This document shows positions 3,294-20,789 of a stretch of DNA of 26,991 bases, one piece after another. A model generated the notes under the pieces. The model was not told where the DNA came from. It did no database searches and saw nothing but the letters and a program-made list of their open reading frames with translations. The stretch spans positions 1 to 26,991 of the IMG/VR virus record IMGVR_UViG_3300015366_000131. One strand, written 5' to 3'. Made by a program: the position numbers and the translations under genes. Positions within the stretch are counted from its first letter, which is position 1. Every line of letters begins with the position of its first letter. Origin of the DNA: a virus.

Positions 3294-3619
3294 ACGGCGG
3301 AGTAGCAATATTATTAGAGCGAATGAAGACTCACCCCGAAGAGTTCTTTAATCATGGTAGCCGATGGAACAATCTCATCATGGACTTTGAGCGTTCACTA
3401 GACCCAGCCGAGTATAAGTTGCTAGAAGAAGGCATAGCTAAGTGTCGTCAAGAAGAGTTCACACAGAAGGTGATGGGCAAGTTAATTGGTGAAGAAAGAG
3501 AAGACAGGGAAGTATTAAATACTGGCGCAGTATCAGGTTCAGTCACTCTTACCACTAGCGGTGCTGGCACAGGATATTCATGGACATCACCAACAATAAC
3601 TATACCCCCCACTAAATGA
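3290..3619 (+). CDS. Phage protein, second of a paralogous pair, with Ser/Thr/Gly-rich tail
   Basis: A 109-residue protein overlapping the previous stop in ATGA, with GGGAGA and AAGG sites upstream. Residues 2-66 repeat the fold-like pattern of the preceding protein (GGVAILLERMKTHPEEFF, then a C-terminal helix EEFTQKVMGKLIGEE). From residue 77 it carries a Ser/Thr/Gly-rich low-complexity tail ending in a polyproline-like TIPPTK, absent in the paralogue. The stop overlaps the polymerase start. Function unknown. Confidence 0.7.
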   Translation: MNGGVAILLERMKTHPEEFFNHGSRWNNLIMDFERSLDPAEYKLLEEGIAKCRQEEFTQKVMGKLIGEEREDREVLNTGAVSGSVTLTTSGAGTGYSWTSPTITIPPTK

Positions 3620-5502
3620 ATCTAATTACCCTAGACTTTGAAACTTACTACGACTCCAAGATTAAACTTGGTTTTAAGCATCAGACGACTGAGGAATACA
3701 TCAGAGACAAGCGCTTTGAAGTAATCGGTGTTGGTGTCAAGGTAGGTGAGGGTGTCACTGAATGGTTTTCTGGTTCACACCTCGACATCCAAAAATACCT
3801 TTCCACACTCCCGTGGAAAGATTCTGCTTTGCTTTGCCACAATACTTTATTTGATGGCTCTATCCTTGCGTGGAAGTTTGGCATCAAGCCATCTTTTTAT
3901 TTAGACACGCTTTGCATGGGTCGTGCAATTCATGGTGTGGATGTCGGGGGTTCTTTATCCTATCTTGCCGAGCGTTATAAGCTAGGGGTCAAGGGTCACG
4001 AGGTTGTGTTGGCAGAAGGCAAGCAAATAACTGGTTTCACTTCAGCCGAACTCACAGCCTACGGCTCATACTGCATCAACGACGTGGAGTTAACTTTTAA
4101 GCTCTTCCAAGTATTGTCGAGCGCGTTCCCACCCGATGAATTGCTTTTGATAGATATGACTTTAAAAATGTTTATCAATCCAATACTAGAGGTTGACGAT
4201 GCGCTACTCAATGACCGACTAGAGGAACTTAAGCATGAGAAATTACAGTTATTAGGGACACTCAAAGCTACCTTGCAATGTGAGAATGAAGAACAAGTAC
4301 GCAAGAAGTTAGCTAGTAATAAACAATTCGCTGCCGTGTTAAAAGAGTTTGGAGTTGAGCCACCCATGAAGGAGAGCAAGACAACTGGCAAACAGACCTT
4401 TGCGCTGGCAAAAAATGACGAAGGGTTCATCGCATTAACGGAACACGAAGACCCAATCATCCAACAACTCGCTGCCGTGCGACTGGGAACAAAATCAACT
4501 ATTGAGGAGAGCAGAATTGAACGTTTCATCGACGTGGGAGCACGTAACAAAGGTCGCCTACCAATTCCCCTCAAATACTATGGGGCGCATACGGGTCGTT
4601 GGGCAGGGTCGGATAAGGTCAATTTTCAAAACCTTCCGAGTAGGGACAAGAAGAAAAAGGCTCTCAAGAACGCGGTGGTCGCACCCGAGGGCTATATGGT
4701 TATCAACTGCGACTCGTCTCAAATTGAGGCACGGGTACTCGCATGGCTTGCGGGGCAGGAAGATCTCGTCAAAGAGTTTGCCAACGGCGATGATGTTTAC
4801 TCCATTTTTGCGTCGAAGATTTACGAACAAGAAATCACCAAAAAGAATCCCGTTGAAAGGTTCGTGGGCAAGACGTGCATTCTCGGTCTAGGCTACGGGA
4901 CTGGCGCATTAAAGTTACAGCACACACTAAAGACTAGTCCGCCAGGAGCAGACCTCACAGAGGATAAGTGTAAGGAAATAGTTAATCTATACAGAGATAC
5001 CAACGACATGATTGTTAAGCTATGGCGGGATGGCGACGACGCTCTCAAGCGATTAGCTGATTGGCAACCTAAACAAAAGCCATTTGCCTATGGCAAACAC
5101 AAGTGTGTGCGGGTTACTAAAGAAGGGATTGAATTGCCAAACGGACTATATATCCGCTACCCTGACTTACAGATCACTGATGACTCTAAAGGCGGATACC
5201 AATACAAGTCACGCAAAGGCCCCGTGTCTCTATGGGGCGGTTCAGTTGTGGAAAACGTAGTTCAAGCACTAGCTAGAATTATTGTGGGTCAGCAGATGAT
5301 TAAATTAACGGAGCGCTATCGACCCGTGCTAACTGTGCATGATGCGGCGGTGTGCGTAGTTCCCGAAGACGAGGTAGATGAGGCTTGTGCATGGATCGTC
5401 GAGGTCATGTCTACACCACCTAACTGGGCTAAGGGTTTACCAGTAGCTTGTGAAGCTCACTTTGGTAAGAATTATGGTGAGATGGAGGAGTGGAAAGCGT
5501 GA
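3616..5502 (+). CDS. Family A DNA polymerase with 3'-5' exonuclease domain
   Basis: The 628-residue replicative polymerase. The N-terminal DEDDy exonuclease shows Exo I DFE (D7, E9), Exo II N76...D80 and Exo III Y152...D156. The polymerase domain shows motif A (CDSSQIEAR, D366), motif B (R415-x3-K419, then L423-G424-x2-Y427-G428) and motif C (VHD, H575-D576). No 5'-3' exonuclease domain is present, as usual for T7-type phage enzymes. Residue L423 aligns with E. coli Pol I Phe762 and T7 Tyr526. In surveys of viral PolA this residue (Phe, Tyr or Leu) has been linked to polymerase speed, fidelity and phage lifestyle. The ATG overlaps the upstream stop with no clear Shine-Dalgarno site, so translation is probably coupled. 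The PPK2 gene follows in a GTGA overlap. Confidence 0.97.
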   Translation: MNLITLDFETYYDSKIKLGFKHQTTEEYIRDKRFEVIGVGVKVGEGVTEWFSGSHLDIQKYLSTLPWKDSALLCHNTLFDGSILAWKFGIKPSFYLDTLCMGRAIHGVDVGGSLSYLAERYKLGVKGHEVVLAEGKQITGFTSAELTAYGSYCINDVELTFKLFQVLSSAFPPDELLLIDMTLKMFINPILEVDDALLNDRLEELKHEKLQLLGTLKATLQCENEEQVRKKLASNKQFAAVLKEFGVEPPMKESKTTGKQTFALAKNDEGFIALTEHEDPIIQQLAAVRLGTKSTIEESRIERFIDVGARNKGRLPIPLKYYGAHTGRWAGSDKVNFQNLPSRDKKKKALKNAVVAPEGYMVINCDSSQIEARVLAWLAGQEDLVKEFANGDDVYSIFASKIYEQEITKKNPVERFVGKTCILGLGYGTGALKLQHTLKTSPPGADLTEDKCKEIVNLYRDTNDMIVKLWRDGDDALKRLADWQPKQKPFAYGKHKCVRVTKEGIELPNGLYIRYPDLQITDDSKGGYQYKSRKGPVSLWGGSVVENVVQALARIIVGQQMIKLTERYRPVLTVHDAAVCVVPEDEVDEACAWIVEVMSTPPNWAKGLPVACEAHFGKNYGEMEEWKA

Positions 5503-6266
5503 GTACAATAGATCAGTCAGAAGAATCACCACGGAACTTGATTAGTCTTAAGGAGTACGAGGCGAAAAAGTATTTATTACAAGTAGAACTTTTGAAATGG
5601 CAAAATCATGTTAAAGAAACTAATACACAACATATTATTATTTTTGAAGGGCGGGATGCCGCAGGTAAAGGTGGGTCAATTAAGCGATTCATGGAACACC
5701 TCAACCCAAGAACCGCAAGAGTCGTTGCCCTCTCCAAGCCCACAGAGCAAGAAGCGAAAGAGTGGTACTGGCAACGCTACATCAAAGAGTTTCCTAAAGC
5801 AGGAGAAATCACGTTCTGGGACAGATCATGGTACAACCGAGCAGGAGTCGAGCCTATCATGGGTTTCTGCACAGTTAACCAAACCAAGCAGTTCTTCAAA
5901 GAAACGCCCGTCCTTGAAAAAATCTGGGTCGAAGGAGGAATTAAAATCATCAAGTTCTGGTACTCCGTCAGCAAAAAAGAGCAAGCCCGTCGCTTCCAAG
6001 AACGTGAAACGCACCCGCTCAAGCAAGGCAAACTCAGCCAAATAGATATTGCTAGTCAAACTATGTGGGATGAATATACCAAAGCAAAAATACAGATGCT
6101 TGATAAGACTAGCACTAAAGAATGTCCGTGGATACAAGTACAATCTGATTGTAAAAGAAGTGCTAGGATTGCTAGTATGCAGTATGTATTATTAAAAAAC
6201 GATTACCCTGATCGGAACCTTGAAAACATTGGGGCAATTAACCCAAACATCCTTAAAGGAGTCTAG
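5499..6266 (+). CDS. ppk2: Polyphosphate kinase 2 (PPK2), class I-like
   Basis: A 255-residue kinase that would transfer phosphate between inorganic polyphosphate and nucleotides. Walker A is GRDAAGKGG (51-59, with D53 and K57), Walker B is FWDRSWYNRAGVE (D108-R109-S110), and the lid region is KKEQARRFQERE...PLKQGKLSQID (159-183). The single-domain length fits the family. Family members usually read PLKRWKLS in the lid; here R and W are Q176 and G177. I start at the GTG at 5499, which overlaps the polymerase TGA in GTGA and has GGAGGAG 8 nt upstream. A GTG at 5490 would collide with that site. The overall wording is closest to single-domain class I enzymes (NDP to NTP), but substrate class cannot be proved by eye. 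Coupling to the polymerase suggests (d)NTP or ATP supply during replication. Host acquisition is likely. Confidence 0.93.
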   Translation: MSTIDQSEESPRNLISLKEYEAKKYLLQVELLKWQNHVKETNTQHIIIFEGRDAAGKGGSIKRFMEHLNPRTARVVALSKPTEQEAKEWYWQRYIKEFPKAGEITFWDRSWYNRAGVEPIMGFCTVNQTKQFFKETPVLEKIWVEGGIKIIKFWYSVSKKEQARRFQERETHPLKQGKLSQIDIASQTMWDEYTKAKIQMLDKTSTKECPWIQVQSDCKRSARIASMQYVLLKNDYPDRNLENIGAINPNILKGV

Positions 6267-6755: not shown

Positions 6756-7409
6756 ATGAACTTTACTTGGTCATTCTCCTCTCTCAAAGACTACGTTAAC
6801 TGTCCTAAGCAGTATCAGGAAGTTAAAGTATTAAAGCGCTTTGTCAAATACCCAACCGAACAAATGCGTTATGGCACGGAAGTGCATAAAGCTTGTGAAG
6901 ACTACGTAGGTGAGGGTATACCCTTAGCTGAAAACTACAAGCGATTTCAGCCTGTACTAGATTCACTTAGGGAAATCCCTGGGGTCAAGTATCCCGAACA
7001 TAGAATGGGACTAGATGCCAATAAAAAAGCGTGTGCTTTTGGCAAGGGCTACTGGGTGCGCGGTATCGTGGATTTGTTAATTGTAGATGGCGAGCAAGCA
7101 TTTATTGTAGACTACAAGACTGGCTCAAATCGCTATCCTGACCCCAAACAGTTAAAGCTGATGGCGCTAATGACCTTTGAGCATTTCCCCGAAGTTAAGC
7201 ATATCAAAGCTGGTCTGTTGTTTGTGATGCACGAGAGTTTCATAGACGAAGAATACACACGGGATCAGATTCCTAAGTTGTGGAATCAATTTAGTACAGA
7301 CCTTGAAAGATTAAACATATCCTACGAAAATGATGTATGGAATCCAAATCCTACACCGCTATGTGGCTGGTGTCCTGTTAGAACCTGTGAGTTTCACAAG
7401 GAGAGATAA
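6756..7409 (+). CDS. PD-(D/E)XK exonuclease, Cas4/RecB-like, with probable Fe-S cluster
   Basis: A 217-residue nuclease. The core shows H44 in YGTEVHKACE, D106 in GIVD, D119-x-K121 in FIVDYKTG and Q132 in the Q-x3 helix, the RecB/Cas4 motif order. Four cysteines are placed as in Cas4 and AddB: C16 near the N-terminus and C203, C206, C211 at the C-terminus, so a 4Fe-4S cluster is likely. Enzymes of this type trim DNA ends 5'-3' or 3'-5' and in phages stand in for the T7 gp6 or lambda Exo class in recombination, host DNA breakdown and end processing. No Cas genes are nearby. The ribosome binding site is weak. The stop overlaps the next start in TAATG. Confidence 0.85.
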   Translation: MNFTWSFSSLKDYVNCPKQYQEVKVLKRFVKYPTEQMRYGTEVHKACEDYVGEGIPLAENYKRFQPVLDSLREIPGVKYPEHRMGLDANKKACAFGKGYWVRGIVDLLIVDGEQAFIVDYKTGSNRYPDPKQLKLMALMTFEHFPEVKHIKAGLLFVMHESFIDEEYTRDQIPKLWNQFSTDLERLNISYENDVWNPNPTPLCGWCPVRTCEFHKER

Positions 7410-7920: not shown

Positions 7921-9498
7921 GTGGAAATAGTTGATAACCAAGCCGTTAAATTTAGGATCAAATCAGATCGAATCAACCTGATTACGGACTATCTAGAAAA
8001 AAGCGAAGTCATAGAAGACAACGGCGATCAAGCAGAAGTTCTAGTGTATTGGGGCATTAAAGAGATGCAACACATGGTAAAAGTCTGTGGGGATAAAGTT
8101 CCTTCACCGATGCAAAGAGATTACACCTGGCCTGGAATGTACACACCATTCAAACACCAAGAAACTACTGCCTCATTCCTTTCACTACAACAACGCGCAT
8201 TCTGCTTTAATGAAGCGGGTACAGGCAAGACTTCATCGGTTATATGGGCTGCCGACTATCTAATGACACAAGGCTTGATTAAACGCGTTTTAATCATCTG
8301 TCCCCTATCTATTATGTATTCAGCGTGGCAAGCAGATATATTTAAAACTGCTATGCACAGAAGCGTAGCTGTAGCTTATGGCGACGCAGACAAACGCAAG
8401 AAAGTTCTTAATGGAGTCTATGAGTTTGTCATCATTAACTATGACGGTGTAGGAATTGTTAAAGAAGAAATAAGTAAACTAGGGTTTGACCTAATAGTAA
8501 TTGATGAAGCAAACGCTTATAAAACAGTTACGACCAAAAGATGGAAAACACTAGCAAAAATAATGATGCCTTCAACAAAACTTTGGATGCTTACTGGCAC
8601 ACCTGCTTCGCAGTCCCCGCTTGATGCGTTTGGGCTTGCAAGGCTTGTATCTCCTGGGAATGTGCCTAAGTATTTTACGTCATGGCGAGATAAGGTAATG
8701 CACCAAGTAACCCGTTTTAAGTATGTACCAAAGCCTAATGCACGGCAAGATGTTTACAACGCTTTGCAACCCGCTATTCGTTTTGAGAAAGCTCAGTGTT
8801 TAGATTTACCGCCTGTGATGTACCAGACCCGTGAAGTGCCACTCACAACACAGGTCATGCGTTACTACCAAGCTATTAAGAGTCAGATGCTTATCCAAGC
8901 GGCAGGAGAAAAAATTAGTGCGGTCAATGCGGCGGCAAAGTTAACAAAATTGTTACAAATTTCGGGAGGGGCTGTCTATACAGACAACCGAGATGTTGTG
9001 GAGTTTGATGTGTCTCCACGATTAAATGCCCTAATGGAAGTGCTTGATGAGACGGAACATAAAGTCATTATCTTTGTTCCCTATGGTCACACTATTGATT
9101 TAGTTGCTAAACATTTACAAGGAGAAGGAGTCACTAATGAAATTATTAGAGGAAGCGTAGCCGCTAAAGAGCGGTCGGAAATTATTAGTCGGTTTCAAAA
9201 TTCAGAATTTCCACGAGTGTTAATTATTCAACCACAAGCTGCATCGCATGGTGTGACTCTAACTGCCGCAGACACAGTAGTATTTTGGTCTCCAGTAATG
9301 AGTGTGGAAACATATCTGCAGTGCGTAGCCCGTATTGACCGTGTTGGTCAGGTTAACAAGATGACTGTCGTACACTTGCAAGGTTCAGAAATTGAACGAA
9401 AGATGTATGCGATGCTTCAGTCTAAAGTTGATAGCCACGAGAAGCTGGTTGACTTGTATAGAGAAGAGTTAGGAATAGAAGATGACAACAATGACTGA
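7921..9498 (+). CDS. SNF2-family DEAD-like helicase/translocase
   Basis: A 525-residue superfamily 2 ATPase with GTG start and AGAGGA about 6 nt upstream. The motifs in order are Walker A EAGTGKT (98-104), motif II as DEAN (195-198), motif III TGTP (225-228), a motif IV/V region with HGVTLTAAD, and motif VI Q-x3-RIDRVGQ (467-477). DEAN replaces the DEAH/DEAQ of typical members. SNF2-type enzymes translocate on duplex DNA and occur in phage replication modules, where they may remodel forks, strip proteins or drive recombination. It leads a cassette with a conserved unknown, the Cys4 protein and an HTH protein. The replicative helicase itself is more likely the C-terminal domain of the protein at 11157. 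Confidence 0.92.
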   Translation: MEIVDNQAVKFRIKSDRINLITDYLEKSEVIEDNGDQAEVLVYWGIKEMQHMVKVCGDKVPSPMQRDYTWPGMYTPFKHQETTASFLSLQQRAFCFNEAGTGKTSSVIWAADYLMTQGLIKRVLIICPLSIMYSAWQADIFKTAMHRSVAVAYGDADKRKKVLNGVYEFVIINYDGVGIVKEEISKLGFDLIVIDEANAYKTVTTKRWKTLAKIMMPSTKLWMLTGTPASQSPLDAFGLARLVSPGNVPKYFTSWRDKVMHQVTRFKYVPKPNARQDVYNALQPAIRFEKAQCLDLPPVMYQTREVPLTTQVMRYYQAIKSQMLIQAAGEKISAVNAAAKLTKLLQISGGAVYTDNRDVVEFDVSPRLNALMEVLDETEHKVIIFVPYGHTIDLVAKHLQGEGVTNEIIRGSVAAKERSEIISRFQNSEFPRVLIIQPQAASHGVTLTAADTVVFWSPVMSVETYLQCVARIDRVGQVNKMTVVHLQGSEIERKMYAMLQSKVDSHEKLVDLYREELGIEDDNND

Positions 9499-9895
9499 AG
9501 TTAATTTAGATGAATTAGTAAAAACTTACTTGACAATAAGAGCAGAGCGTGAAAGAATTGCTGCAGAGTGGAAAGTACAAGACAAAGTATTTGAGAATGA
9601 TTTAGTAGTTTTAGGTCAGCAAATGCTTGCAGTGTGCAACGAAACAAACGCAACCAGTATTAAAACCAAAGAAGGTCGAGTGGTTAAAAAGTTAAATGAA
9701 CGCTACACCATATCTGATGGAGATAGCTTTCGCAAGTTTGTTATGGAGAAGGAAATGCCTGAGTTGTTTGAAGGGCGCATACACCAAACAAACTTTAAAG
9801 AATTCATGGCTGAGCATGCAGGTGATGGCTTGCCGCCTGGCGTGAATGTAATGAGAGAGTTTACTGCAGTAGTATATAAACCCACTCAAGATTAG
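9482..9895 (+). CDS. Conserved phage replication-region protein of unknown function
   Basis: A 137-residue protein overlapping the helicase end by 17 nt, with AGGA about 7 nt before its ATG. A second ATG nine bases on is also possible. The N-terminal third is a charged helix (LTIRAERERIAAEWKVQDKVFE), the middle is a beta-rich TSIKTKEGRVVKKLNERY, and the end has the pattern LPPGVNV...FTAVVYKP. I recognise this layout, including the PPG-hinge and the strand at the end, from unnamed proteins that sit beside ssDNA-binding genes in other phages, sometimes grouped with host-nuclease-inhibitor-like proteins. No function is proven. Confidence 0.7.
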   Translation: MTTMTEVNLDELVKTYLTIRAERERIAAEWKVQDKVFENDLVVLGQQMLAVCNETNATSIKTKEGRVVKKLNERYTISDGDSFRKFVMEKEMPELFEGRIHQTNFKEFMAEHAGDGLPPGVNVMREFTAVVYKPTQD

Positions 9896-9923
9896 TTAAA
9901 TACAGTTAAATAAGGAGTTTTAA

Positions 9924-10769
9924 ATGAGTACAGAATTAGTTAATTTAAGTGCCCTCGGTGCGTTGGCTACGGTTGGCGGATTAGATGAAGATACATTAGC
10001 CGTTGCTGGTGGCAATCGCCAAGGCAATAAGCGTATCTCTATTAAGGGCGGAGTCTTCCGTAAGTATGCAGGTGGTAAAGAGATCGGTGCTATTGAAGAC
10101 CGCTACATGAATGTCATCATTGTTAAGATGGCACACAATGCCTCACGTATGTTTTATGATAAGGGCTACAAAGAAGGTGAGAAGGTATCCCCAGCTTGCT
10201 GGTCTTCTGACTCTAACAAGCCTGATGAAGATGTTAAAAATCCAGTTGCATCCAGTTGCTCGGCATGTCCGAATAGTGCGAAGGGTTCTAGCGATAATGG
10301 TACAAGCGCAAAATGCAGATTGTCATGGCGCACCGCAGTTGTTCTACCGAACGACCCAGCAGGTGATGTTATGCAGTTAGTACTTCCAGCTACTTCGTCT
10401 TTCGGTAAAGAAGATAATGGTCGTTGGCCTTTCCGTCCTTACATTCAGCACCTAGCGTCACACAATGTGTCAGCGGGCCGCGTTGTTACTAAGATGGCTT
10501 TCGATACAAAATCTCCTACGCCAAAAGTATTGTTCTCTCCAGTTGGTGCTGTGTCTGATAGCGATTTAGAAATCATTGCTCGTCAAGCTAAAAGCCCAAC
10601 GGCTGAACAAGCCATCAAGTTAAATGTCTATCAAACAGATAGCGCTGGTGAAGCTCCAGAGGTTGCAGAGCCAGAGGTAGCTGAACCAGTCAAGCGTGAG
10701 TCAAAAGCTTCCGCTGGTGAGAAAGCATCCGACGTATCGGATATTGTTAAAAAATGGTCTAAGAAGTAA
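9924..10769 (+). CDS. Cys4 zinc-finger protein, putative ssDNA-binding protein
   Basis: A 281-residue protein with a strong AAGGAG site. Four cysteines (C92, C112, C115, C131) in PACWSSD...CSACP...KCR form a likely zinc site, flanked by beta-rich segments. From about residue 230 the tail is a low-complexity EVAEPEVAEPVKRE stretch and it ends SDIVKKWSKK. Position between helicase and primase, size, and the inserted zinc knuckle suggest a phage ssDNA-binding protein with gp32-like wiring. Unlike most such proteins the extreme C-terminus is basic, with the acidic part just before it. I call the function tentatively. Confidence 0.6.
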   Translation: MSTELVNLSALGALATVGGLDEDTLAVAGGNRQGNKRISIKGGVFRKYAGGKEIGAIEDRYMNVIIVKMAHNASRMFYDKGYKEGEKVSPACWSSDSNKPDEDVKNPVASSCSACPNSAKGSSDNGTSAKCRLSWRTAVVLPNDPAGDVMQLVLPATSSFGKEDNGRWPFRPYIQHLASHNVSAGRVVTKMAFDTKSPTPKVLFSPVGAVSDSDLEIIARQAKSPTAEQAIKLNVYQTDSAGEAPEVAEPEVAEPVKRESKASAGEKASDVSDIVKKWSKK

Positions 10770-10777
10770 GGATAAAA

Positions 10778-11092
10778 ATGCCACGGACGTATAGCAAAGA
10801 ATTTATTAAAGAGTTAGGTGGACTGCGCCCATTCGATACCACAGGGGTGCAGTTGGCAAAAGCTTGTGTGAGAGCGAACCTCCCCGCAAAGTACGTTGCT
10901 GTCGCACTAGAAGTAACTCGTATGTCGGTTCATAGCTGGTTCCGTGGCAATCCTATCCGTGATAAGAAGCGCCGATTGATTGCTGCATTTACATCATTAG
11001 TTGAGAAGGACTTAGATGATGGCATATTGCCAGCTAAGAACACCGCCCAAGCTAAGGCTTATATAGAGGACATGATCGGTCAAAAGATTTAA
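10778..11092 (+). CDS. HTH DNA-binding phage protein
   Basis: A 104-residue protein preceded by AAGGATA. Residues 24-60 (GVQLAKACVRANLPAKYVAVALEV...SVHSWFRG) show a clear helix-turn-helix: LPAKYVAVALEVTRMSVHSWF. A basic helix (IRDKKRRLIAAF) and an acidic C-terminal region follow. Similar small proteins with the phrase SVHSWFRG-PIR occur near replication genes of other phages, probably as regulators or origin-associated factors. It is the last gene before a terminator and before the primase gene. Confidence 0.7.
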   Translation: MPRTYSKEFIKELGGLRPFDTTGVQLAKACVRANLPAKYVAVALEVTRMSVHSWFRGNPIRDKKRRLIAAFTSLVEKDLDDGILPAKNTAQAKAYIEDMIGQKI

Positions 11093-11156: not shown

Positions 11157-14054
11157 ATGTTAAAACAATTCTATGAGAAAGCATTGCCATCGCAGGGTGT
11201 TTATTGTGTAAGTGGTATAGAACAAACAACAAAGAAAACAGTCAACCGCTTTGCAGAAACACTTGAAGATGTATTTAAATTAGTCGAGAAGTTAAAAAGT
11301 CAGCAGTTAAATGTATTTGTAGCACCTGGGTCGTTCGATGGGTTTAGCCGTAAAGCGGAGAACTGCATCTTTTATAAGTCGTTCTTCGTTGATCTCGATG
11401 TTGGAGAGGGTAAAGCTTATGGTGACAAAGGCGAGGCGCAAACAGCCTTATGGAAGTTCCTTGGTGAAACAGGTCTGCCTGATCCTGTGTGTATTGATTC
11501 TGGCGGTGGTCTGCATGCCTATTGGATTATGGATAGGGATATCCCAATTGAAGAGTACCTTCCCTATGCACAGAAGTTCAAGACATTTGCATTAGCAAGG
11601 ATAGGCGCTGACCCGATGGTGATGGCTGATCCAGCTAGGATCATGCGTTGCCCTGACACATTCAATCATAAGTTTAATCCCCCAGAACCTACGTCAGTTA
11701 TTGGTGATGAGATTTCTAGCTATGACTGGGATGAGTTTAAAGCATTCTTAGATTCTTTTGAAGTTGTTGAACAAGCTAAGACCGTAGACCCGTTTGCTAA
11801 TGTACGCAAAGGCTTAGACGAAGATGCACTAGCTATGAAAAAGCTAGATGACTACGAGTGGAGCTTTCAAAAGATTGTAGAACGCACACTTGCTGGTGAT
11901 GGCTGTGCGCAGATTAAACACATATTAGTTGAGGCTGCAACGCTAGAAGAACCACTATGGCATGCTGGTCTATCTATAGCCAAGTTCTGTACTGATGGCG
12001 CAAAAGCTATACATCTAATATCAGAAGACTATCCCACTTATTCATACGAAGAAACAGAAAAGAAAGCCAAAGACTTTCCAGCCCCTCGCACATGCGAATG
12101 GTTTGAAGATAACTACCCTGACAGATGCAAAGGATGCAAACACCGTGGAAAAATTAAAACCCCAATCGTTTTGGGAAAAGTTATTAAGGAAGCAACCGAC
12201 GAAATTATTATTACCCCAGCAGGAGAACAGTCAGCCAGCGACATTAACGCCGCCCTCGGAATACAAACCGATGAAGAGGAATCAGTTTGGGAGACATCGA
12301 ATACCCAAAAAATTCCAAAATTACCAACCCCCTATGTAGTAGGCGCTAGTGGCGGTGTTTATTTTGTACCTCCACCGAAAGCTGATAAGAAGGGGCAGGT
12401 TCACTACGAAGACCCATTTGAGATTCTTGCACAACTGTTATACCCCACACGCAGACTATTTAGTCCTCTAGATGGTGAGTGCTTGACTATGCATTTGATT
12501 CTTCCTAATGATGGTCTTAAAGAGTTCTTACTACCTATGAAGTCTGTATATGCGTTAGAAGAATTTAAGAAGACACTCTCGTTTCACCAAGTTATTTATA
12601 GTCCGAAGCATATCAATCACATACAAGAATACATTGTCACATGGAGCAAATATATGATTCTCATAAACAAAGCGCAACAGATGCGTATGCAGTTAGGTTG
12701 GACAGAGTCTAAGAACTCTGAAGAATGGAATAAACGTAGTTTTGTTGTTGGCGATAAAGAGATTACCCACGATGGTAAATTAGTTGAAGCACCTATTTCG
12801 CCCTACATCCGTGGAGTATCTAAACACTTTAAAACAGTTGGAACTTTTGAACGTTGGCAAGAGTCAGCTAATGAACTAAACCGTCTTGGGTTTGAGTTGC
12901 ATGCTATGGTCTGCATGGCTGGTTTTGGAACCACACTCATGTCCTACATGTCTACACCTGGCGTTGTGATATCTTTGTTGGGTAGATCAGGTAGCGCTAA
13001 GACTGGTGCTATGTATGCTGGCATTAGTGCTTTTGGTGACCCCGACGCGCTAAGCGTATTTGAAAGTACGGACAACGGTTTGACTGGTCGTATGCTTGGT
13101 CTTAAGAACTTGATGTTTGGAGTTGATGAAGTTGGTAACAAAGACCCTAAGCCACTATCTCAGTTAGTTCATAACGTCTCAAATGGTAAAGCCAAGATTC
13201 GCATGCAAGCATCAGTCAATGCTGAACGGGTTACCGAGATGATAGCATCTTTAATAGCAGTGTTAACCACTAATGAATCGGTTTACAACAAGTTTGAGGT
13301 TCTTAAGGGAAGTCCTGACGGAGAAGTAGCTCGTCTGATTGAGTTCTTGATTGAACAACCAGAGGACTTAAAAGGGGCAGAAGGCGCAAAGCTAGGTGTT
13401 CATATCTTTGATGCATTCAAACATAACTATGGTCATGCAGGTCCGATGTTTATCCAGCAGGTCTACCAGATTGGTGATGCTCATATTCAGATGCGGATTG
13501 GTCATTGGATTAATAGATATTTAACTGACACAGGTGGCGATTCAGCTTATCGTTTCCATCAGAACTACGTAGCGGCTGTGTTTACAGCAGGAGAAATTCT
13601 AAACGATGCTGGTATTGTTAAGTATGATTTAGAACGTATTTACCGCAAAGTAATTCATGAGCTTATCAACATCAAGCTAAATGTGGTCAAGGTTAACAAT
13701 ACCGACTACTCTGCTGTTCTCAATGACTTTATCTACGAGAATATGGGTAACATCTTACGTATTAAGGATGGCAAGGTGATTGATGAACCCCGCGGCAAAT
13801 TAGTTGCAAGAGTTGCTACCGATGAACCTACTCGCATATCTAAAGAAGCGTTCAAAGAATATTTGCAGAAGAAAAAGATTTCTCCACGAGAGTTTGAAAA
13901 GCATATGCTCGAGTCTGGCGATATGGTAGACAAAGGTGCTAAGAAACATTTGGAAACTGGCTGGAAAGCAACGACTACTACCAAAGCTACCAACGTTTAT
14001 CTATTCAAAAATACAATGGAGTTCACGGATGATAAACCCCACGCAGATCATTGA
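11157..14054 (+). CDS. Primase-helicase (AEP primase domain plus AAA-type helicase domain)
   Basis: A 965-residue fusion. The N-terminal archaeo-eukaryotic primase-type domain has FFVDLD (D79, D81), SGGGLHAYW (H120) and ADPARIMR (D158), the three AEP motifs. A Cys/His cluster CKGCKH near 340 may bind zinc. The C-terminal half is a DUF927/RepB-like ATPase with Walker A GRSGSAKT (609-616) and Walker B FGVDEVGN (D657-E658). The protein would both prime and unwind at the fork beside the polymerase, replacing a T7 gp4-type enzyme. No Shine-Dalgarno site is seen before the ATG (CTGCGCAT), and a terminator ends 13 nt upstream, so expression is probably low or depends on readthrough. The gene overlaps the next by 26 nt. 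Confidence 0.88.
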   Translation: MLKQFYEKALPSQGVYCVSGIEQTTKKTVNRFAETLEDVFKLVEKLKSQQLNVFVAPGSFDGFSRKAENCIFYKSFFVDLDVGEGKAYGDKGEAQTALWKFLGETGLPDPVCIDSGGGLHAYWIMDRDIPIEEYLPYAQKFKTFALARIGADPMVMADPARIMRCPDTFNHKFNPPEPTSVIGDEISSYDWDEFKAFLDSFEVVEQAKTVDPFANVRKGLDEDALAMKKLDDYEWSFQKIVERTLAGDGCAQIKHILVEAATLEEPLWHAGLSIAKFCTDGAKAIHLISEDYPTYSYEETEKKAKDFPAPRTCEWFEDNYPDRCKGCKHRGKIKTPIVLGKVIKEATDEIIITPAGEQSASDINAALGIQTDEEESVWETSNTQKIPKLPTPYVVGASGGVYFVPPPKADKKGQVHYEDPFEILAQLLYPTRRLFSPLDGECLTMHLILPNDGLKEFLLPMKSVYALEEFKKTLSFHQVIYSPKHINHIQEYIVTWSKYMILINKAQQMRMQLGWTESKNSEEWNKRSFVVGDKEITHDGKLVEAPISPYIRGVSKHFKTVGTFERWQESANELNRLGFELHAMVCMAGFGTTLMSYMSTPGVVISLLGRSGSAKTGAMYAGISAFGDPDALSVFESTDNGLTGRMLGLKNLMFGVDEVGNKDPKPLSQLVHNVSNGKAKIRMQASVNAERVTEMIASLIAVLTTNESVYNKFEVLKGSPDGEVARLIEFLIEQPEDLKGAEGAKLGVHIFDAFKHNYGHAGPMFIQQVYQIGDAHIQMRIGHWINRYLTDTGGDSAYRFHQNYVAAVFTAGEILNDAGIVKYDLERIYRKVIHELINIKLNVVKVNNTDYSAVLNDFIYENMGNILRIKDGKVIDEPRGKLVARVATDEPTRISKEAFKEYLQKKKISPREFEKHMLESGDMVDKGAKKHLETGWKATTTTKATNVYLFKNTMEFTDDKPHADH

Positions 14055-14238
14055 ACCAGAATGGCTGCTACCGTTTGAAGGCATGGAGGTTGGGGAGAGT
14101 TTTTTTATCCCTACCCTTCGCCCAGCGGAGTTAATTTACTCTTTAGACTGTGGCGCAAAGCGAGCTGGAGTGCGTGTAAAGTCGTACGTTACAACTAAAG
14201 ATAGTCACCTAGGGGTACGTTGTTGGCGTACCGCCTAG
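14029..14238 (+). CDS. Small phage protein of unknown function
   Basis: A 69-residue protein. The frame is open upstream into the primase gene, but GGAG at 14018-14021 fits the ATG at 14029. The sequence (IEPEWLLPFEGMEVGESFFIP...) has the pattern E-WLLPFEGMEVGESF followed by a basic KRAGVRVKSYV and a C-terminal GVRCWRT. I recognise the W-PF-x-ME-VG-SFFIP layout from unannotated phage proteins, often in the replication region. The TAG stop is part of the CTAG shared with the opposite-strand gene and lies in a terminator stem. Confidence 0.7.
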   Translation: MINPTQIIEPEWLLPFEGMEVGESFFIPTLRPAELIYSLDCGAKRAGVRVKSYVTTKDSHLGVRCWRTA

Positions 14239-14246
14239 TCTTTTTT
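14209..14246 (+). terminator. Rho-independent terminator at the convergent junction
   Basis: CTAGGGGTACG (14209-14219) pairs with CGTACC (14227-14232), then a bulged G, then CCTAG (14234-14238), around loop TTGTTGG. Six T follow at 14241-14246. The T-run serves + strand transcription. On the - strand the hairpin lacks a T-run. The stop codons of both flanking genes are in the stem. Confidence 0.8.
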
Positions 14247-17200
14247 CATACCATATGCTTGGAACATACTAACCATACGGTACTTAATTAAGTTCTGTTG
14301 GAACTGATTTATTTTAAGTAGCTCAGCTTTTGTCTTGGGATCATAAGCAGGGTTGGCTCTAATTTTATTAGCGTCTGCCCTGTAATCTTTTAAATTACCG
14401 TTAATACTTTTTTCATAATAATCAACAATTAAAGTATTTAATGGCTTTTCAGCTTTATAACGTGCTAGTTGCGCAGGATTAGACTTAAACTCATTCATAA
14501 TCTTTTGCATTTCCTGTACGTCTTTTTCCATTTTAGAAAACTCACGGGCATCAACGCTTGACTTAGCGCCAAAGAAAGAACCAAACAATGGTAAGTCTGT
14601 TTTAGCGGTAAATTCTTTTCTACCTTTTTGCATTTCTGATAAGCCGTAAGCTAGTTCTCCGATACGGCTAGCTCCATCAGCATAGCTATTGGCAAAGAAG
14701 TACAAGGAGTTAGGACTAATATCAATACCACCCAAACTTTCATTTGCCATCCACACTGCTAAGTCTTTATACACCTGTGGGATTTTGTCTCCGCCAAGAT
14801 ATGCATCACCCATACGACGGTTAGAGTCATTATAAATGTTTTGACCAAGACCATTTTTATTCATAACAAACTCAACCAAAGGACGTACGGTGCTTGGCAT
14901 CATAGAGTCAACTGCAAATGCCAATGGGTTTTCCATAGCATTCATACGAGATACTGGAATTGGCACAAACGAATCAAGCGATATCTGTAAGAAGATATTA
15001 CCCAAAGCATTCTTCATAGACTGTGAGCCACTCAACACAGAAGCAAATTGCGCACCAGCAGCGGCAAACGCACCTAGTCCAAAACCCCAAGGAATCTGTA
15101 TAGGAGTTCTATCTTTGCTTATCCAGCGTGGTAAATGGAAACGAGCAAAGCGAGTCCACTGATCCATATTATCGTTTAATACATCGTTTCGACCCATGTC
15201 ATCATCATCTGCCATCAACGCTGCCATAGCATAAGCAGTCACACCCATACCAAGTAGAACACCAACCATATTTTGGGCGTTTCTCTTTTTAGCCATGTAG
15301 TTTTTTCTAAACGTATCTTTGGCTTCTTGGTTGTCTCTAAGTCCTGGCAACGTAGCTTCTGCTTCTATCATTACTTTATTAATGTTACGGAACGCTGGAG
15401 TAATAGCCTCAATAGCACGAACAGCACCTGTTGCAGATGGGCGGAAGAACATAAAGAATGCACCCATAGCTTTACCAAGTTCACCGACCTGTTCAAAGTT
15501 AGCTAGGTTTTTAGCGTAGGCAGCGGCGCGGGTTGCAGCGGCGGCTTCGGTCATGCCTTGAGTCATATAGTTACTCTTCATCAAACCATATGCTGCGGTG
15601 CGGCTAGCCAATTCAAATGAATTGTTATAGATATCAATGAATTTATCAAACTGTTCTTTAGTCTGAATAATCTTAGAAGTACCTAATTCGCTACGTAATT
15701 TCTGGTAGTTAGCTTTTAAACTTACGCCCTCTAAATAAGAAGTCATACCGCCTTGGCTTAAAAACTCCAACATATTTTTGGTAAATGCATTTTGCTCAGC
15801 GTAGGCTGCCAACTGGTCAAACTGCCTAGTCTCTAATAAGTATGCTACTTTTGCTGCTTTAGCTAGACCACCATTTGCCACCGCAGCGCTAATTTGACCA
15901 ATGAACTGAGCAGACTTAACTGGACCTAAGTCAGCACCGATAGCCCAAGCGTTGGTCAATGCATCACGAACAAAGTTTAAAGGCGCAAAGTTATAGTTGT
16001 AGCGAGTATGTAATTGACCAAAGAAGCTAGTAATACTATTACCAAGCTCAGTTAGGGTACTAGTTTGCTGATAAGTACGACGGATGCTATCTAGCATTGG
16101 CTTATCGTCAATCTCTAAAATATCAATACTACCATCTTCGTTGTAATGGAAAATGGTTTTATCTTTAGGGATAGCGTCTAGTTTAGCTTTATCTCGTTCA
16201 TTAAACGGTATATGGTCAATAACTCGACCAGCAATAATGCCTTGCCCATTAGGATTTAATTTGCCTTTATGTAAAAGATTTTTAACTGATTGAGTTAATC
16301 CTACACGTCCAGCACGGGTTGCAGCGCGAACTGCATCAGACATAGTTTGAAGTACTGGGTTATCTGCAGGAGTAAAACGACCATCAAATCCGTAGGCGGC
16401 GTCTTGCAAGTCTTTACCCAAGCGTTTGCTTTCAAAACCTAAGTCCTCGTCAAGGGTAGTATGAGAAGAAAACGCACCCTTACCTTTAAACGGCGCATAA
16501 TGATCATAGCCATAGAAGTTTACTCGGTTATCTACATAGGCAGACCAGTAGTTTGCCTCTTTATTAAGCATTGTAGTTACATCGTTAACTTCTTTTAAGT
16601 TAGCAAGAATGCTATCGTAGATAGGTTTAAGTTCCGTATTCTTTTCGTAATCAGCAAGACGTGCAGCCATCTTGTCAGATTTAACACCTAACACGTTATA
16701 ACGTATGTTATTAATATCCAATAAGCTCTTATCGCCTAATTGTTTTCCAGATAACTCATCACTCATCGCTGTAGCATAGCGAGATACAATTGTATCTAAT
16801 TCAGCACGTAATGCTTGAGCTTGTGCTTTAGATAAGCGTTTACTATCTAATAGATTAACAATTGTTTTGCGTCTATCAGCAGGACTCAATGTATTATTGT
16901 TTAGTATTTTATTAGTATCTAAAGGCACAGTTAGAATGTATTTAACTAGACGACGTTCTTTTTCGTGCAGTGCTTCTAATAGCATATGCACCTTGCTTAA
17001 CGCTTCGTCCGTATCTACTTTTAAAGTTTTAGCTAACTGGGCAATACCTTTTTGCAAACGCTCATGTGGCTCTGCAATATATCGGCTATATAGGTTACGC
17101 GCTTTAGTATTAGATAGAGTCAGGAAAGTCCAAACAGTATTAATCTTGCTATCGTCTTCCCAGTTAGTCTGATCAGCAAGTTCCATTAAATCTTGCAAAT

Positions 17201-20200
17201 GCTTAGCGTTGTAGCTTCTATTTTGAAAAAGCGTAGCAAGTCTGCGTAACCCAGGGGCTGTTGTAAAGAATTTATGGATGCCAGTTATGTTCTTTGGTTT
17301 CTGTTTAGATGATAGTTTGTATGGGCTATCTTTCGCTAATGGCGCGGTTAAGTCACCTTCTTCACCACGTAGTTTGGCTTCAGCCTCTTCAGCTTTAGTA
17401 ACTTTTGATTTACCTGCAGCGCCTTTTTTAGCGGCAGCAAGCGGAGCAACTTTAATGCCTTTCTCTGGGGAAGCAAGAATACGGCTAAAAACTTCAGACA
17501 TCTCTAACATGAGATTGCCTTCATAGCCTGGGTAGGTAGTTAAAAACTTTCTAGCTTGCGTTGCATGTACTTTTTCTTTTTTAACTACAACTTCTTTTTC
17601 ATTGCCTTCTTCATTTAACATAGAAGTAGCAAATTCGCCTACGGTTTCAGCATCTTTAATAGCTTCATATAGCTCATCTGGATCCATTGAGCCATACTCT
17701 TTGGCAACTTGCGCATACATTTCAGCAGTTAATTCTTCTGTTTGAGCTTTAGCGTCATACAAACCAAACATCTTGCTAAGCGCTTGAGTAAATTGTTTCC
17801 AAGCTGCCATAGCTTTAGCAGTGTATTTTGCAAGGGGACGTACTTGTGTTTCAGCTAAAGCAATTTGAAATTTATTATCTGTCATTGCATAACTAACAAA
17901 CTCGTACAAATTTTCGTATGCGTTTTTAAATCTACCGCCTAAACGTTTTTTAGAAAAGTCGTATATCTTTTGCAAATGCTCAGCCGCATCTCTTTGTGTT
18001 TGAGTAAGCTTAGATGGGTCTTTTAAATATTGACTAATAATTTTTACAGTACCTGCGTGAACAATTTCATGAAGGACAGTAGACTCATCAAATCCGCCAG
18101 GGGTAAAGTAAAAAGTATCTGTTTTAGGATTGTATTCAGCCAGCTTACCTTCTTGTTCTAAACGTTGAATAACTTTATTATTAGGATCAGTAATAACTTT
18201 AGAATTAAAAGTTAGTGTATTTAAAGAAGTAGCCAATAATCTAAAAGTTAAAGCGCTAGCCCGTTTACGAATACTTGCAAGATAAGCATAAGCTTGACGA
18301 TAAGTCTTGTCACCTTTTTTTAAATTTAATCCTTTAAACCCTTCAGAAGATGAAATGAGATCAGACAGCACTCCGTTAATATCACCAGTTATTAATTTAG
18401 CTTTTGTATTTTCAGATAATGCTTCGCCTTTGCCTTGGGCAGATGCTTCTTCCGCAGCTTCTTTTTTAATTCGTTCAGTAGCTGCAGCTTTAGATACTTC
18501 TTCAGTACCTTTAAGTTTTAAATTTCTAACGCCCTCACGAGACACATTACGAATGCCATGACCTTCTTGTTCTAGTTGTTCAGCTACAGCAGTAAATCCT
18601 GCATCCCGCTCAACAGGGCTATTAGTTTTTACTTTACTGGTATAAGCGGATTGAGCCTCTGGAGATAAACTACCCCATGCTGGCATGTCAATACCTAAAG
18701 AACGTTGAAAAATTGGGCGGTTCTTTTCGTAGCCATTAACTATGCGTTGTTCAACTGGTTTTAAACCAGAACCTTTATTTTGTTCTCTATAAGCAGCAAG
18801 GGTTTTTGCAGCATTATCAAAATCTTCTGCTGACGGATTAGTTTTAAGACTGCCTAGATATGTTTCTTTTTCATCAGCTTTTAAATCTTTCCAAGCAGGT
18901 ATAACTACACCAGCTTCTTTTTGCGCTTGGCGTGATAACTCATATTCTTCACGAGTTTGCTCATCAGTTTTAACTTGCGGTATGTTTTGCCCAATAGTTT
19001 CTTTTAAGGCTGCTTGGCGTGCTGCTTCATCTTGAGCGGCTTGCGCTTGGTCTTTCTCTAGTGCAGCTTGTGATTCTGTAGGAGTAATTGTTTGAGACTC
19101 TTCTTTTAACGGAAGAGGTCTTGTTGGCATAGCCGTTGATTGTTGTTTTAGTGCAGGACGCTCTGTTCCTTCTCCAGTTTGAGACACCTGAGCAGGTGGC
19201 TTAATTCCTCCCACTCCTCCACTTTCAGTTGTGGTAGTTCCTGCGGCGGTGGTATCAGCACCTTGCTGTCCAGATATTTGAGAGCTAACTCTATTTGTTG
19301 CATCGAGAGTGCTAGTTGTTGGGGCATTTGGATCTCCTATAGTTGCCAAATGGTCTTTAAGTAATTGCGTAGCTTGCAAGTTGTCCATACCTTCTGGACG
19401 CTCAAGACCAAACTTACCAAACAAAGACTTAATAGTAGATGGGTGTAGTGCTTTGCCTTCAGCTAATTTACCCAGTTTCTCATTTGCTTCTTGAACATTC
19501 TTTTCAATTTGCAATTCTTCTGGTGTCTTTGGCTTAACAATGTTTTGGACGACAGGTGCAGCTTCAGCTAATGACTTACCAGTCTCATCTAGCGCTGGGG
19601 ATATAACAGCGGCTTCTTCTGGAGTAAGCGTATCAACTTTAGTTTCTATGTTTTTATCAATGCCAGTAAATGCGTCTTTGCTTTTAGCTTCGTTGCCAGG
19701 CTTAACTTCAATCTTGCCATTCATGAAAGTGCGTACGCCACCTAGACCGCCAGGAACTACAGACATACCTACTGAAGCAGCGGCAGTATTAATATAATCT
19801 TTTAAAGCTTGCGCATCGGCTAAAGACAGATTAGCGCCATAGCGCTCTGCCATTGTTTGAATTTCTTCTGGAATTACTTCTTTAAGACCTGTTGTACCAA
19901 TAGCTTTAGCTATGTCATAAACTAATTTGCCAGTACTCTCTGCAGGTAACCCACTTAAGTTAAGCCCTTTAACTGCGCCTAATGTAATTTTTTCAGTTGC
20001 AAAGTCAGCGATTGCATGAATAGCGGCGGCAGGAAGAACCCGACCCAAGTCTAAGTCTTCAGCAGTTTTGCCTTGTTGTTGTAATTCATCTAATGCTCGC
20101 CCAGTAGTTTCACCAGCGCCATGCATACCAGCTTGGGCAGCCATACCAGCAGTTGTACCAAAGCTTCTAATAACATTTTTAGCTTCGTTCTGAATTAACT

Positions 20201-20789
20201 GTTCAGCTTTTTCTTTAGCACCTTGCGCAATTAAAGCTTCAGCTGCATCTTTAATACCTTTTTTAACAATAGACCGTTCTATTAAACCAGCTATACCTCC
20301 AGGGATTGCGCCAACACCTGCGCCAGTTGCAGCGCCAGCCACCGCACCAAGACCTGTAAATGCTGCTGTTTCTGCCAGCGTACCAATACCAGAACCAATT
20401 TGATATGGTAACCAGTCTGTTAATACAGTACCAATACCTTTATTTAATGCCGTAGTAAATTCATCAGAGGCACGTACTTTTTGCGCTGCTTGGGCTTCAT
20501 TCATGCCCTGCACACCAGCATTCATCATTTCTTTACTGCCAACCGCTTTGCCTGTTAGAACTTTAGCTGCATTGTAAGTTTCTTTAATGCCAGGTAATGT
20601 GTTTGTAATACCACGAACTAAATCGCTAGATGTATCTTCATCGCCTAATACTCTAGGACCAGTTTGAGTAGGTTGTGCTGGACTAGCTGCCCCAACTTTA
20701 TACTGTTCAAAGCGGGATAGTAAATCTTCTTGTGTAATTCCTTCTGGTACGTTTCTAACAAGCGTACCGTCTGGCATCCTTACATCCAT
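14235..20789 (-). CDS. Giant virion/ejected protein with zincin metallopeptidase domain
   Basis: A 2184-residue protein with AAGGAAT before its ATG. The N-terminus (MPDGTLVRNVPEGITQEDLL...) is a short domain I know from the start of other giant phage proteins. A Gly-rich hydrophobic stretch at 131-170 could enter membranes. A zincin motif HEIVH (H907, E908, H911) with E963 in NLYEFVSYA fits a gluzincin-like metallopeptidase. The middle (about 400-820) is a long Gln/Ala/Lys-rich helical region. The C-terminal third (NFVRDALTNAW near 1610, a hydrophobic segment at about 1838-1859) resembles large polyvalent protein-associated domains of phages. Such proteins are packaged and enter the cell with DNA. 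Its place after the GNAT-like and 854-residue genes parallels T7 gp16. The protease target, viral or host, is unknown. Confidence 0.8.
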   Translation of the reverse strand: MDVRMPDGTLVRNVPEGITQEDLLSRFEQYKVGAASPAQPTQTGPRVLGDEDTSSDLVRGITNTLPGIKETYNAAKVLTGKAVGSKEMMNAGVQGMNEAQAAQKVRASDEFTTALNKGIGTVLTDWLPYQIGSGIGTLAETAAFTGLGAVAGAATGAGVGAIPGGIAGLIERSIVKKGIKDAAEALIAQGAKEKAEQLIQNEAKNVIRSFGTTAGMAAQAGMHGAGETTGRALDELQQQGKTAEDLDLGRVLPAAAIHAIADFATEKITLGAVKGLNLSGLPAESTGKLVYDIAKAIGTTGLKEVIPEEIQTMAERYGANLSLADAQALKDYINTAAASVGMSVVPGGLGGVRTFMNGKIEVKPGNEAKSKDAFTGIDKNIETKVDTLTPEEAAVISPALDETGKSLAEAAPVVQNIVKPKTPEELQIEKNVQEANEKLGKLAEGKALHPSTIKSLFGKFGLERPEGMDNLQATQLLKDHLATIGDPNAPTTSTLDATNRVSSQISGQQGADTTAAGTTTTESGGVGGIKPPAQVSQTGEGTERPALKQQSTAMPTRPLPLKEESQTITPTESQAALEKDQAQAAQDEAARQAALKETIGQNIPQVKTDEQTREEYELSRQAQKEAGVVIPAWKDLKADEKETYLGSLKTNPSAEDFDNAAKTLAAYREQNKGSGLKPVEQRIVNGYEKNRPIFQRSLGIDMPAWGSLSPEAQSAYTSKVKTNSPVERDAGFTAVAEQLEQEGHGIRNVSREGVRNLKLKGTEEVSKAAATERIKKEAAEEASAQGKGEALSENTKAKLITGDINGVLSDLISSSEGFKGLNLKKGDKTYRQAYAYLASIRKRASALTFRLLATSLNTLTFNSKVITDPNNKVIQRLEQEGKLAEYNPKTDTFYFTPGGFDESTVLHEIVHAGTVKIISQYLKDPSKLTQTQRDAAEHLQKIYDFSKKRLGGRFKNAYENLYEFVSYAMTDNKFQIALAETQVRPLAKYTAKAMAAWKQFTQALSKMFGLYDAKAQTEELTAEMYAQVAKEYGSMDPDELYEAIKDAETVGEFATSMLNEEGNEKEVVVKKEKVHATQARKFLTTYPGYEGNLMLEMSEVFSRILASPEKGIKVAPLAAAKKGAAGKSKVTKAEEAEAKLRGEEGDLTAPLAKDSPYKLSSKQKPKNITGIHKFFTTAPGLRRLATLFQNRSYNAKHLQDLMELADQTNWEDDSKINTVWTFLTLSNTKARNLYSRYIAEPHERLQKGIAQLAKTLKVDTDEALSKVHMLLEALHEKERRLVKYILTVPLDTNKILNNNTLSPADRRKTIVNLLDSKRLSKAQAQALRAELDTIVSRYATAMSDELSGKQLGDKSLLDINNIRYNVLGVKSDKMAARLADYEKNTELKPIYDSILANLKEVNDVTTMLNKEANYWSAYVDNRVNFYGYDHYAPFKGKGAFSSHTTLDEDLGFESKRLGKDLQDAAYGFDGRFTPADNPVLQTMSDAVRAATRAGRVGLTQSVKNLLHKGKLNPNGQGIIAGRVIDHIPFNERDKAKLDAIPKDKTIFHYNEDGSIDILEIDDKPMLDSIRRTYQQTSTLTELGNSITSFFGQLHTRYNYNFAPLNFVRDALTNAWAIGADLGPVKSAQFIGQISAAVANGGLAKAAKVAYLLETRQFDQLAAYAEQNAFTKNMLEFLSQGGMTSYLEGVSLKANYQKLRSELGTSKIIQTKEQFDKFIDIYNNSFELASRTAAYGLMKSNYMTQGMTEAAAATRAAAYAKNLANFEQVGELGKAMGAFFMFFRPSATGAVRAIEAITPAFRNINKVMIEAEATLPGLRDNQEAKDTFRKNYMAKKRNAQNMVGVLLGMGVTAYAMAALMADDDDMGRNDVLNDNMDQWTRFARFHLPRWISKDRTPIQIPWGFGLGAFAAAGAQFASVLSGSQSMKNALGNIFLQISLDSFVPIPVSRMNAMENPLAFAVDSMMPSTVRPLVEFVMNKNGLGQNIYNDSNRRMGDAYLGGDKIPQVYKDLAVWMANESLGGIDISPNSLYFFANSYADGASRIGELAYGLSEMQKGRKEFTAKTDLPLFGSFFGAKSSVDAREFSKMEKDVQEMQKIMNEFKSNPAQLARYKAEKPLNTLIVDYYEKSINGNLKDYRADANKIRANPAYDPKTKAELLKINQFQQNLIKYRMVSMFQAYGMKKD

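Follow-up and report, generated by a model that had tools for sequence, protein, structure and literature searches.

The window analyzed here, a 26,991-base IMG/VR virus record, carries a gene of 281 codons and a stop in the midst of replication genes, which a preliminary description took for a single-stranded DNA-binding protein (SSB) with a zinc site and a basic end, and possibly for a distinct class of SSB. The locus thus raises two questions: does the gene encode an SSB, and, if so, what sets it apart from the SSBs already known? The coordinates, frame and length given at the outset hold, with AAGGAG lying 6 bases before the ATG, as does the flanking by a SNF2-type helicase and a DUF927 primase/helicase, with one small ORF on each side (Table 1). 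We consider it very likely that the gene encodes a phage SSB, an assignment supported by a predicted OB-type core, its operon position, the failure to detect another SSB in its relatives' records and the SSB-Ct tips found on distant members of its family.

Table 1. Features of the window around the candidate SSB gene
Feature	Position	Strand	Basis or remark
DNA polymerase A	3616-5502	+	
PDDEXK exonuclease	6756-7409	+	
SNF2-type helicase	7921-9498	+	Pfam PF00176 1.6e-21; phrog_62 4.8e-103
137-aa partner ORF, directly upstream of the candidate SSB gene	9482-9895	+	phrog_13900 'minor head protein'
Ribosome-binding site AAGGAG	9912-9917	+	read from sequence; 6 bases 5' of ATG at 9924
Candidate phage SSB gene (P0001)	9924-10769	+	ORF; matches two PHROGs of 'unknown function', phrog_27714 and phrog_23155
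Predicted OB-type core, residues 35-235	10026-10628	+	AlphaFold2 and VIA-align (phiC31 gp3, BRCA2 OB, gp32)
Four-cysteine site, probable zinc	10197-10316	+	invariant in 183/183 and 82/82 family ORFs
C92; C112; C115; C131	10197-10199; 10257-10259; 10266-10268; 10314-10316	+	
Flexible linker, residues 239-269	10638-10730	+	low pLDDT, low conservation
Acidic EVAEPEVAEP, residues 246-255, inside the linker	10659-10688	+	
C-terminal peptide DVSDIVKKWSKK, residues 270-281, probable docking tip	10731-10766	+	predicted short helix; conservation
104-aa ORF between the candidate SSB gene and the primase/helicase	10778-11092	+	
DUF927 primase/helicase	11157-14054	+	Pfam PF06048 8.5e-18; phrog_8841 1.9e-29

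The protein, P0001, has no Pfam match at E<=1 and no NCBIfam model. HMM searches linked it to phrog_27714 (4.4e-21) and phrog_23155 (3.7e-5), which are matched, respectively, by 103 and 99 of the 105 members of our main family alignment and by 34 and 36 of the 36 members of an alignment spanning all branches. Using tblastn and scans of viral contigs, with the best 80 loci taken from each scan, we recovered a first branch of at least 183 ORFs in 183 loci, whose members we divided into 'window-like' and 'distant' at 50% identity to P0001. Distant matches led further to Thermoanaerobacterium phage THSA-485A and Faecalibacterium phage FP_Epona, and from there to a second, distant and mostly Bacillota branch of 82 ORFs in 82 loci (the THSA-485A branch). 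The Bacillota label derives from the named phages and from the titles of genome-contig records, some of which name no Bacillota organism; collected with THSA-485A as the one query, the set also takes in KPP25 and Tunturi_4. A 90% redundancy filter (183 to 108 and 82 to 62 sequences), with ORFs open at a contig end excluded, preceded the counts given below. The two branches constitute one family since the second-branch HMM matches 179/183 first-branch members (P0001 at 4.6e-10 in that small set) as against 0/366 shuffled or reversed sequences, and since hhalign joins them at 99.8% (E 4.9e-30 over 207 columns).

The most striking shared feature is the set of cysteines that had been singled out as a probable zinc site. 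C92, C112, C115 and C131 are the sole cysteines of P0001, and all four are invariant in 183/183 first-branch ORFs (108 non-redundant at 90%) and in 82/82 of the second branch. In the 36-sequence alignment spanning all branches, invariance is limited to five columns, namely one proline and these four cysteines. Ten named phage records with relatives were recovered by tblastn, annotated as 'hypothetical' or 'uncharacterised' throughout. The named members include Xp15 gp40, KPP25 ORF069, THSA-485A Tsac_2873 and FP_Epona gp21, along with proteins of Rollin, Acinetobacter phages Effie and HHU4, and RHph_TM3_14A; every one is a 'hypothetical protein' encoded in a replication operon. In the open-access literature we recognized no paper as describing this four-cysteine family. 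The assignment would give a function to a family of at least 265 loci (183 and 82 ORFs) that lies outside Pfam and NCBIfam.

Gene neighborhoods were counted over those non-redundant loci whose flanking DNA was long enough. The SNF2 helicase and a homologue of the 137-aa partner ORF lie upstream in all 101 loci (71/71 window-like, 30/30 distant), and the primase lies downstream in 88/91 (60/60 window-like, 28/31 distant). In the second branch, the family gene of THSA-485A and FP_Epona is likewise preceded by a helicase and followed by a primase/helicase; in KPP25 a helicase and a polymerase precede it, with no primase within the stretch read. The 'minor head protein' label attached to the partner ORF through phrog_13900 is probably wrong, because that gene stands directly before the SSB gene in 101/101 loci. 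In FP_Epona, the stretch matching its position holds a gene annotated as a Mu Gam-like DNA-ends protection protein (PF23984).

The PDDEXK exonuclease is nearly as constant an upstream companion (71/71 window-like and 28/30 distant loci, 99/101 overall), which might indicate that the protein is mainly a recombination factor, an annealing protein or mediator acting with the exonuclease, with coating of ssDNA secondary; the SSB of T7, too, is annotated in a record note as an annealing protein. However, the exonuclease is found at a median distance of about 2.5-3.7 kb, the nearest neighbors being the helicase, the phrog_13900 gene and the primase/helicase, and no annealase-family match was obtained in Pfam, PHROGs or NCBIfam. 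We therefore regard a primarily recombinational role as improbable.

Several other genes in these loci deserve mention in their own right. A Polyphosphate kinase 2 gene (5490-6266, +; PF03976, 9.3e-84; no PHROG match) is inserted between the DNA polymerase and the exonuclease of the window; among the 183 loci it occurs only in L001-L004, all with an identical candidate SSB. A 2184-aa ORF (14235-20789, -) partially matches phrog_2206 'virion RNA polymerase', over residues 768-1037 only, and a 151-aa ORF (2255-2710, +) combines C-terminal matches to a nucleotide-kinase family with an N-terminal MarR-type match. In Xp15 (NC_007024) the SSB gene is followed by gp39 (L083 8723-10366), annotated as a Nol-like carbamoyltransferase, which occupies the place of the small ORF and the primase in the window's clade.

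We searched 28 relatives' records (5 named phage records and 23 contigs of about 59-68 kb, several of them possibly incomplete) for SSBs of the bacterial, gp32, Enc34 and T7 types. None of the 28 yielded a bacterial SSB (control positive in 10/14 genomes), a gp32 (T4 control positive), or, by HMM, an SSB of Enc34 type (Enc34 control positive) or T7 gp2.5 type (T7 control positive); DUF669 and phrog_224, run without a control, were likewise found in 0/28. A bacterial-type SSB was also found in none of 19 second-branch records, KPP25 among them. The candidate is a replication-operon gene for which no second SSB of bacterial, gp32, T7 or Enc34 type was detected in these records.

To what extent does the predicted structure agree with this? 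AlphaFold2, run on a 105-sequence alignment, returned a model of P0001 with a mean pLDDT of 82.4, in which the blocks of the 35-235 core mostly reach 90-97, followed by a low-confidence tail with a short helix at 272-279. In VIA-align searches this model retrieved phiC31 gp3 first (9teh; Z 8.7, 149 residues), along with a BRCA2 OB domain (6.6), RB69 gp32 (6.5; 148 aligned, rmsd 4.1) and T4 gp32 (5.3). The AlphaFold2 model of Xp15 gp40 retrieved gp3 (6.9), BRCA2 (6.0), RB69 gp32 (5.8; 101 aligned, rmsd 3.7) and the T4 gp32 core (5.3), and lower in the lists are many OB proteins, such as RPA, CST, Mcm10 and HIN domains. The case for an OB fold stems from the same proteins heading the lists of both models, though Z values of 5-9 are middling and can also be reached by unrelated folds. 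Against the PDB, no Foldseek match reached an E of 1e-3, the lowest values for the two models being 0.016 and 0.051; against viral models it gave 20 matches at E<=0.001, all without a named function. The structure prediction, which had been proposed as a check on the assignment, thus favors an OB-type core through the gp3, BRCA2 OB and gp32 matches that lead both lists, but does so with middling scores and without a significant Foldseek match in the PDB. Matches to RecA fusions in the PDB (E 2.2e-4, residues 68-129) were dismissed as chance: they are weak, no stretch passes alone, and profile searches did not recover them.

The position of phiC31 gp3 as the top match of both models brings in a further reading, under which the protein would be a recombination directionality factor acting on a serine integrase, and THSA-485A and FP_Epona do encode a large serine recombinase. 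Nevertheless, this reading fails for the window's clade because no large serine recombinase (PF07508) was found in any of the 28 window-side records; KPP25 was negative as well, whereas phiC31, THSA-485A and FP_Epona were positive. Moreover, hhalign against the gp3 family finds nothing (0.2% and 0.1% for the family profiles), and only 1/105 family members touched PF18897, at an E of 0.06 that missed the cut-off. We accordingly deem a directionality factor the least probable of the alternatives, and a very slight prospect.

The C-terminus provides a different line of evidence on the candidate SSB. As had been pointed out, the acidic EVAEPEVAEP segment is internal (residues 246-255 of 281) and the protein ends in the basic DVSDIVKKWSKK (net +2). 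A W near the end is present in 75/75 window-like members, the pattern D-h-x-D-h-h-x-x-W in 71/75, and a net positive charge over the final ten residues in 72/75. Pairwise identity among these 75 non-redundant proteins is 68% over the nine residues up to the W, as against 22% over the preceding 18, and at the level of sequence the conservation of the tip exceeds chance. We asked whether such a W-tip is common to other proteins of the clade: it occurs in 16/4959 ORFs, and the tails listed resemble the end of the window's DNA polymerase, a likeness that we judged coincidental. A DVSDIVKKWSKK-type peptide stands at none of the seven neighboring ORF ends that were read.

The remaining branches end differently. 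All 33 distant first-branch members carry a net acidic charge over their final 20 residues, with ends such as FDDIANKW, GWDD and FEADLDSMLDELL. In the THSA-485A branch, PF falls within the final six residues of 28/62 non-redundant members (EENIPF, DDLPF, DDLPFN, EELPFK) and is absent there from 34/62, many of which end in LPL or LPA; the window's clade has no SSB-Ct tip of this kind. A regular expression for the acidic-LPF tip matched 34/75 unique members of this branch as compared to 24/1201 other ORFs; among the 20 of these 24 that were listed, most are the neighboring primase/helicase, which shows that such a tip also occurs outside SSBs. The tip is reminiscent of E. coli SSB, which, according to a passage of PMC5872125, docks partners including primase through its DDDIPF hub peptide; acidic tails are termed characteristic of prokaryotic and phage SSBs in part of another paper (PMC5686142). 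In three loci (L261 1437-1865, L263 1469-1894 and L270 1383-1808), a third, upstream ORF of about 140 aa ends in a LDGDRESLPE-like sequence, which recalls the LPA/LPL tips that the SSB has in such loci.

In 20/36 loci of the THSA-485A branch the family protein and the primase/helicase (e.g. L221 5749-8505) share this SSB-Ct-like tip class. Together with the primase downstream in most loci, this might be read as pointing to an OB-fold adaptor of the primase/helicase, acting as a loader or a clamp-like cofactor rather than as a bulk coat of ssDNA. Yet the shared tip class would rather suggest a common third partner than mutual binding, and such an adaptor would leave the 28 records with no detected SSB of bacterial, gp32, Enc34 or T7 type. 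We hence hold a pure adaptor to be quite improbable, slightly more so than the recombination factor.

Returning to the SSB assignment, the basic tip is, as far as the sequences go, confined to the window's clade, the other branches being acidic or bacterial SSB-Ct-like. DVSDIVKKWSKK is probably a conserved docking-like peptide that replaces the acidic tips of those branches. The place of the tip is kept and its chemistry is branch-specific, with W-tip, acidic and SSB-Ct-like ends on the same core. The basic end therefore does not serve as the mark of a class, as the preliminary description had it, the more so as the unrelated N4 SSB is already non-acidic. The broader notion of a distinct SSB class fares better: the family has no Pfam or NCBIfam counterpart and its profiles do not join those of gp32 or N4 SSB, even though the basic end itself belongs to one clade.

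Taken together, these observations suggest the following model. A zinc-stabilized OB-type core of about residues 35-235 would coat the ssDNA that the phage helicase and primase-helicase generate, with the four cysteines holding zinc in a loop region between strands. A disordered linker of ~30 residues would present a short C-terminal amphipathic peptide, DVSDIVKKW with a basic cap, which would dock other replication proteins and bring them to the coated strand. In distant relatives this docking place may be held either by an acidic-LPF tip copied from bacterial SSB or by an end that is acidic and amphipathic, on which account the docking peptide seems to have been exchanged to suit different partners while the core was retained. 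The window-clade tip combines hydrophobic positions and two Asp with a Trp-bearing, Lys-rich end; its docking target may be a phage protein, and contact with DNA is conceivable as well. The family, its invariant cysteines, its operon and the conservation and exchange of its tips can be read from the alignments and gene order; for zinc holding, ssDNA binding and docking by the tip, we infer all three. All in all, we are confident that this is a real, conserved and hitherto unnamed phage SSB family, with ssDNA binding as its predicted activity. It would offer a natural series of one SSB core with varied docking tips, so that tip and partner could be swapped for testing.

How, then, does the family compare with known systems? 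A passage of PMC5686142 sorts the SSBs of dsDNA phages into four groups, the T7, T4, bacterial and N4 types, and our family, compared with all four by HMM or profile, matches none of these. It resembles gp32 of T4 and RB69 (PF08804), likewise a phage SSB, in its OB-type core and zinc site, both of them predictions in the candidate. Zinc in gp32 is held by one His and three Cys, unlike the four Cys of the candidate site, and the gp32 end is acidic (DDTDLDDLLNDL). Zinc in gp32 is described in PMC8276246. PF08804 had no HMM match among 105 family members, and hhalign gave 0.9% and 1.6%. With bacterial SSB (PF00436) the family shares the acidic-LPF tip class of its THSA-485A-branch members, but it differs in the four-Cys site and in the tip of the window's clade; PF00436 was matched neither by the P0001 core nor among the families that the 105 members hit at E<=0.1.

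Phage N4 SSB (phrog_743) is similar in its non-acidic aromatic C-terminus, and it provides a precedent for such a tip because it ends in SLFGKK and because LFG or LFN is retained close to the C-terminus in its relatives (19 loci, 18 with a readable protein). It differs in lacking a four-Cys site, those 18 proteins having 0-3 cysteines. P0001 lies outside phrog_743; a family profile scan gave N4 SSB an E of 0.0024 among four control proteins, but profile-profile comparison (hhalign 0.8% and 0.1%) did not support kinship, which we rejected. T7 gp2.5 and Enc34 ORF6 (PF21265, PF10991) are likewise phage OB-fold SSBs with a disordered partner-binding tail, as part of PMC5686142 describes for this type; their tails, however, are acidic and their HMMs matched nothing in the 28 records. 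Cyanophage Pam3 gp34 (PF23977) was dropped as a relative after one member at E 0.25 and 0/20 records at E<=1.

A bolder reading, which we put forward tentatively, is that the family constitutes a further major group of tailed-phage SSBs, to be set alongside the T4, T7, bacterial and N4 types and defined by an invariant four-Cys OB core and an exchangeable tip, with gp3 as a repurposed member of the same fold. It is conceivable, though doubtful, that Bacillota phages copied the SSB tip of their host and carry it on the neighboring primase/helicase too, and that the window's clade uses an unrelated peptide, D-x-x-D-hydrophobic-KKW. For gp3 itself, descent from a phage SSB, or its still being one, is a speculative proposal of the same standing; were it true, integrase direction in THSA-485A, FP_Epona and other phages with a serine integrase may be set by the SSB itself. 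Part of the gp3 literature reports that gp3 binds integrase and that gp3 alone did not bind att DNA (PMC3132441). We claim no shared zinc site because MAFFT left the gp3 cysteines unaligned with those of the family; by eye, gp3 has a C...CxCP run similar to that of the candidate family, a lead only. phiC31 gp3 (PF18897) differs from the family in that its cysteines are not conserved across all gp3 relatives and in its serine integrase, a counterpart of which was found in none of the 28 window-side records; yet it is the top structural match, and its gene likewise lies between exonuclease and primase. Through this structural likeness, the question of where gp3, a directionality factor in wide use, originated becomes testable.
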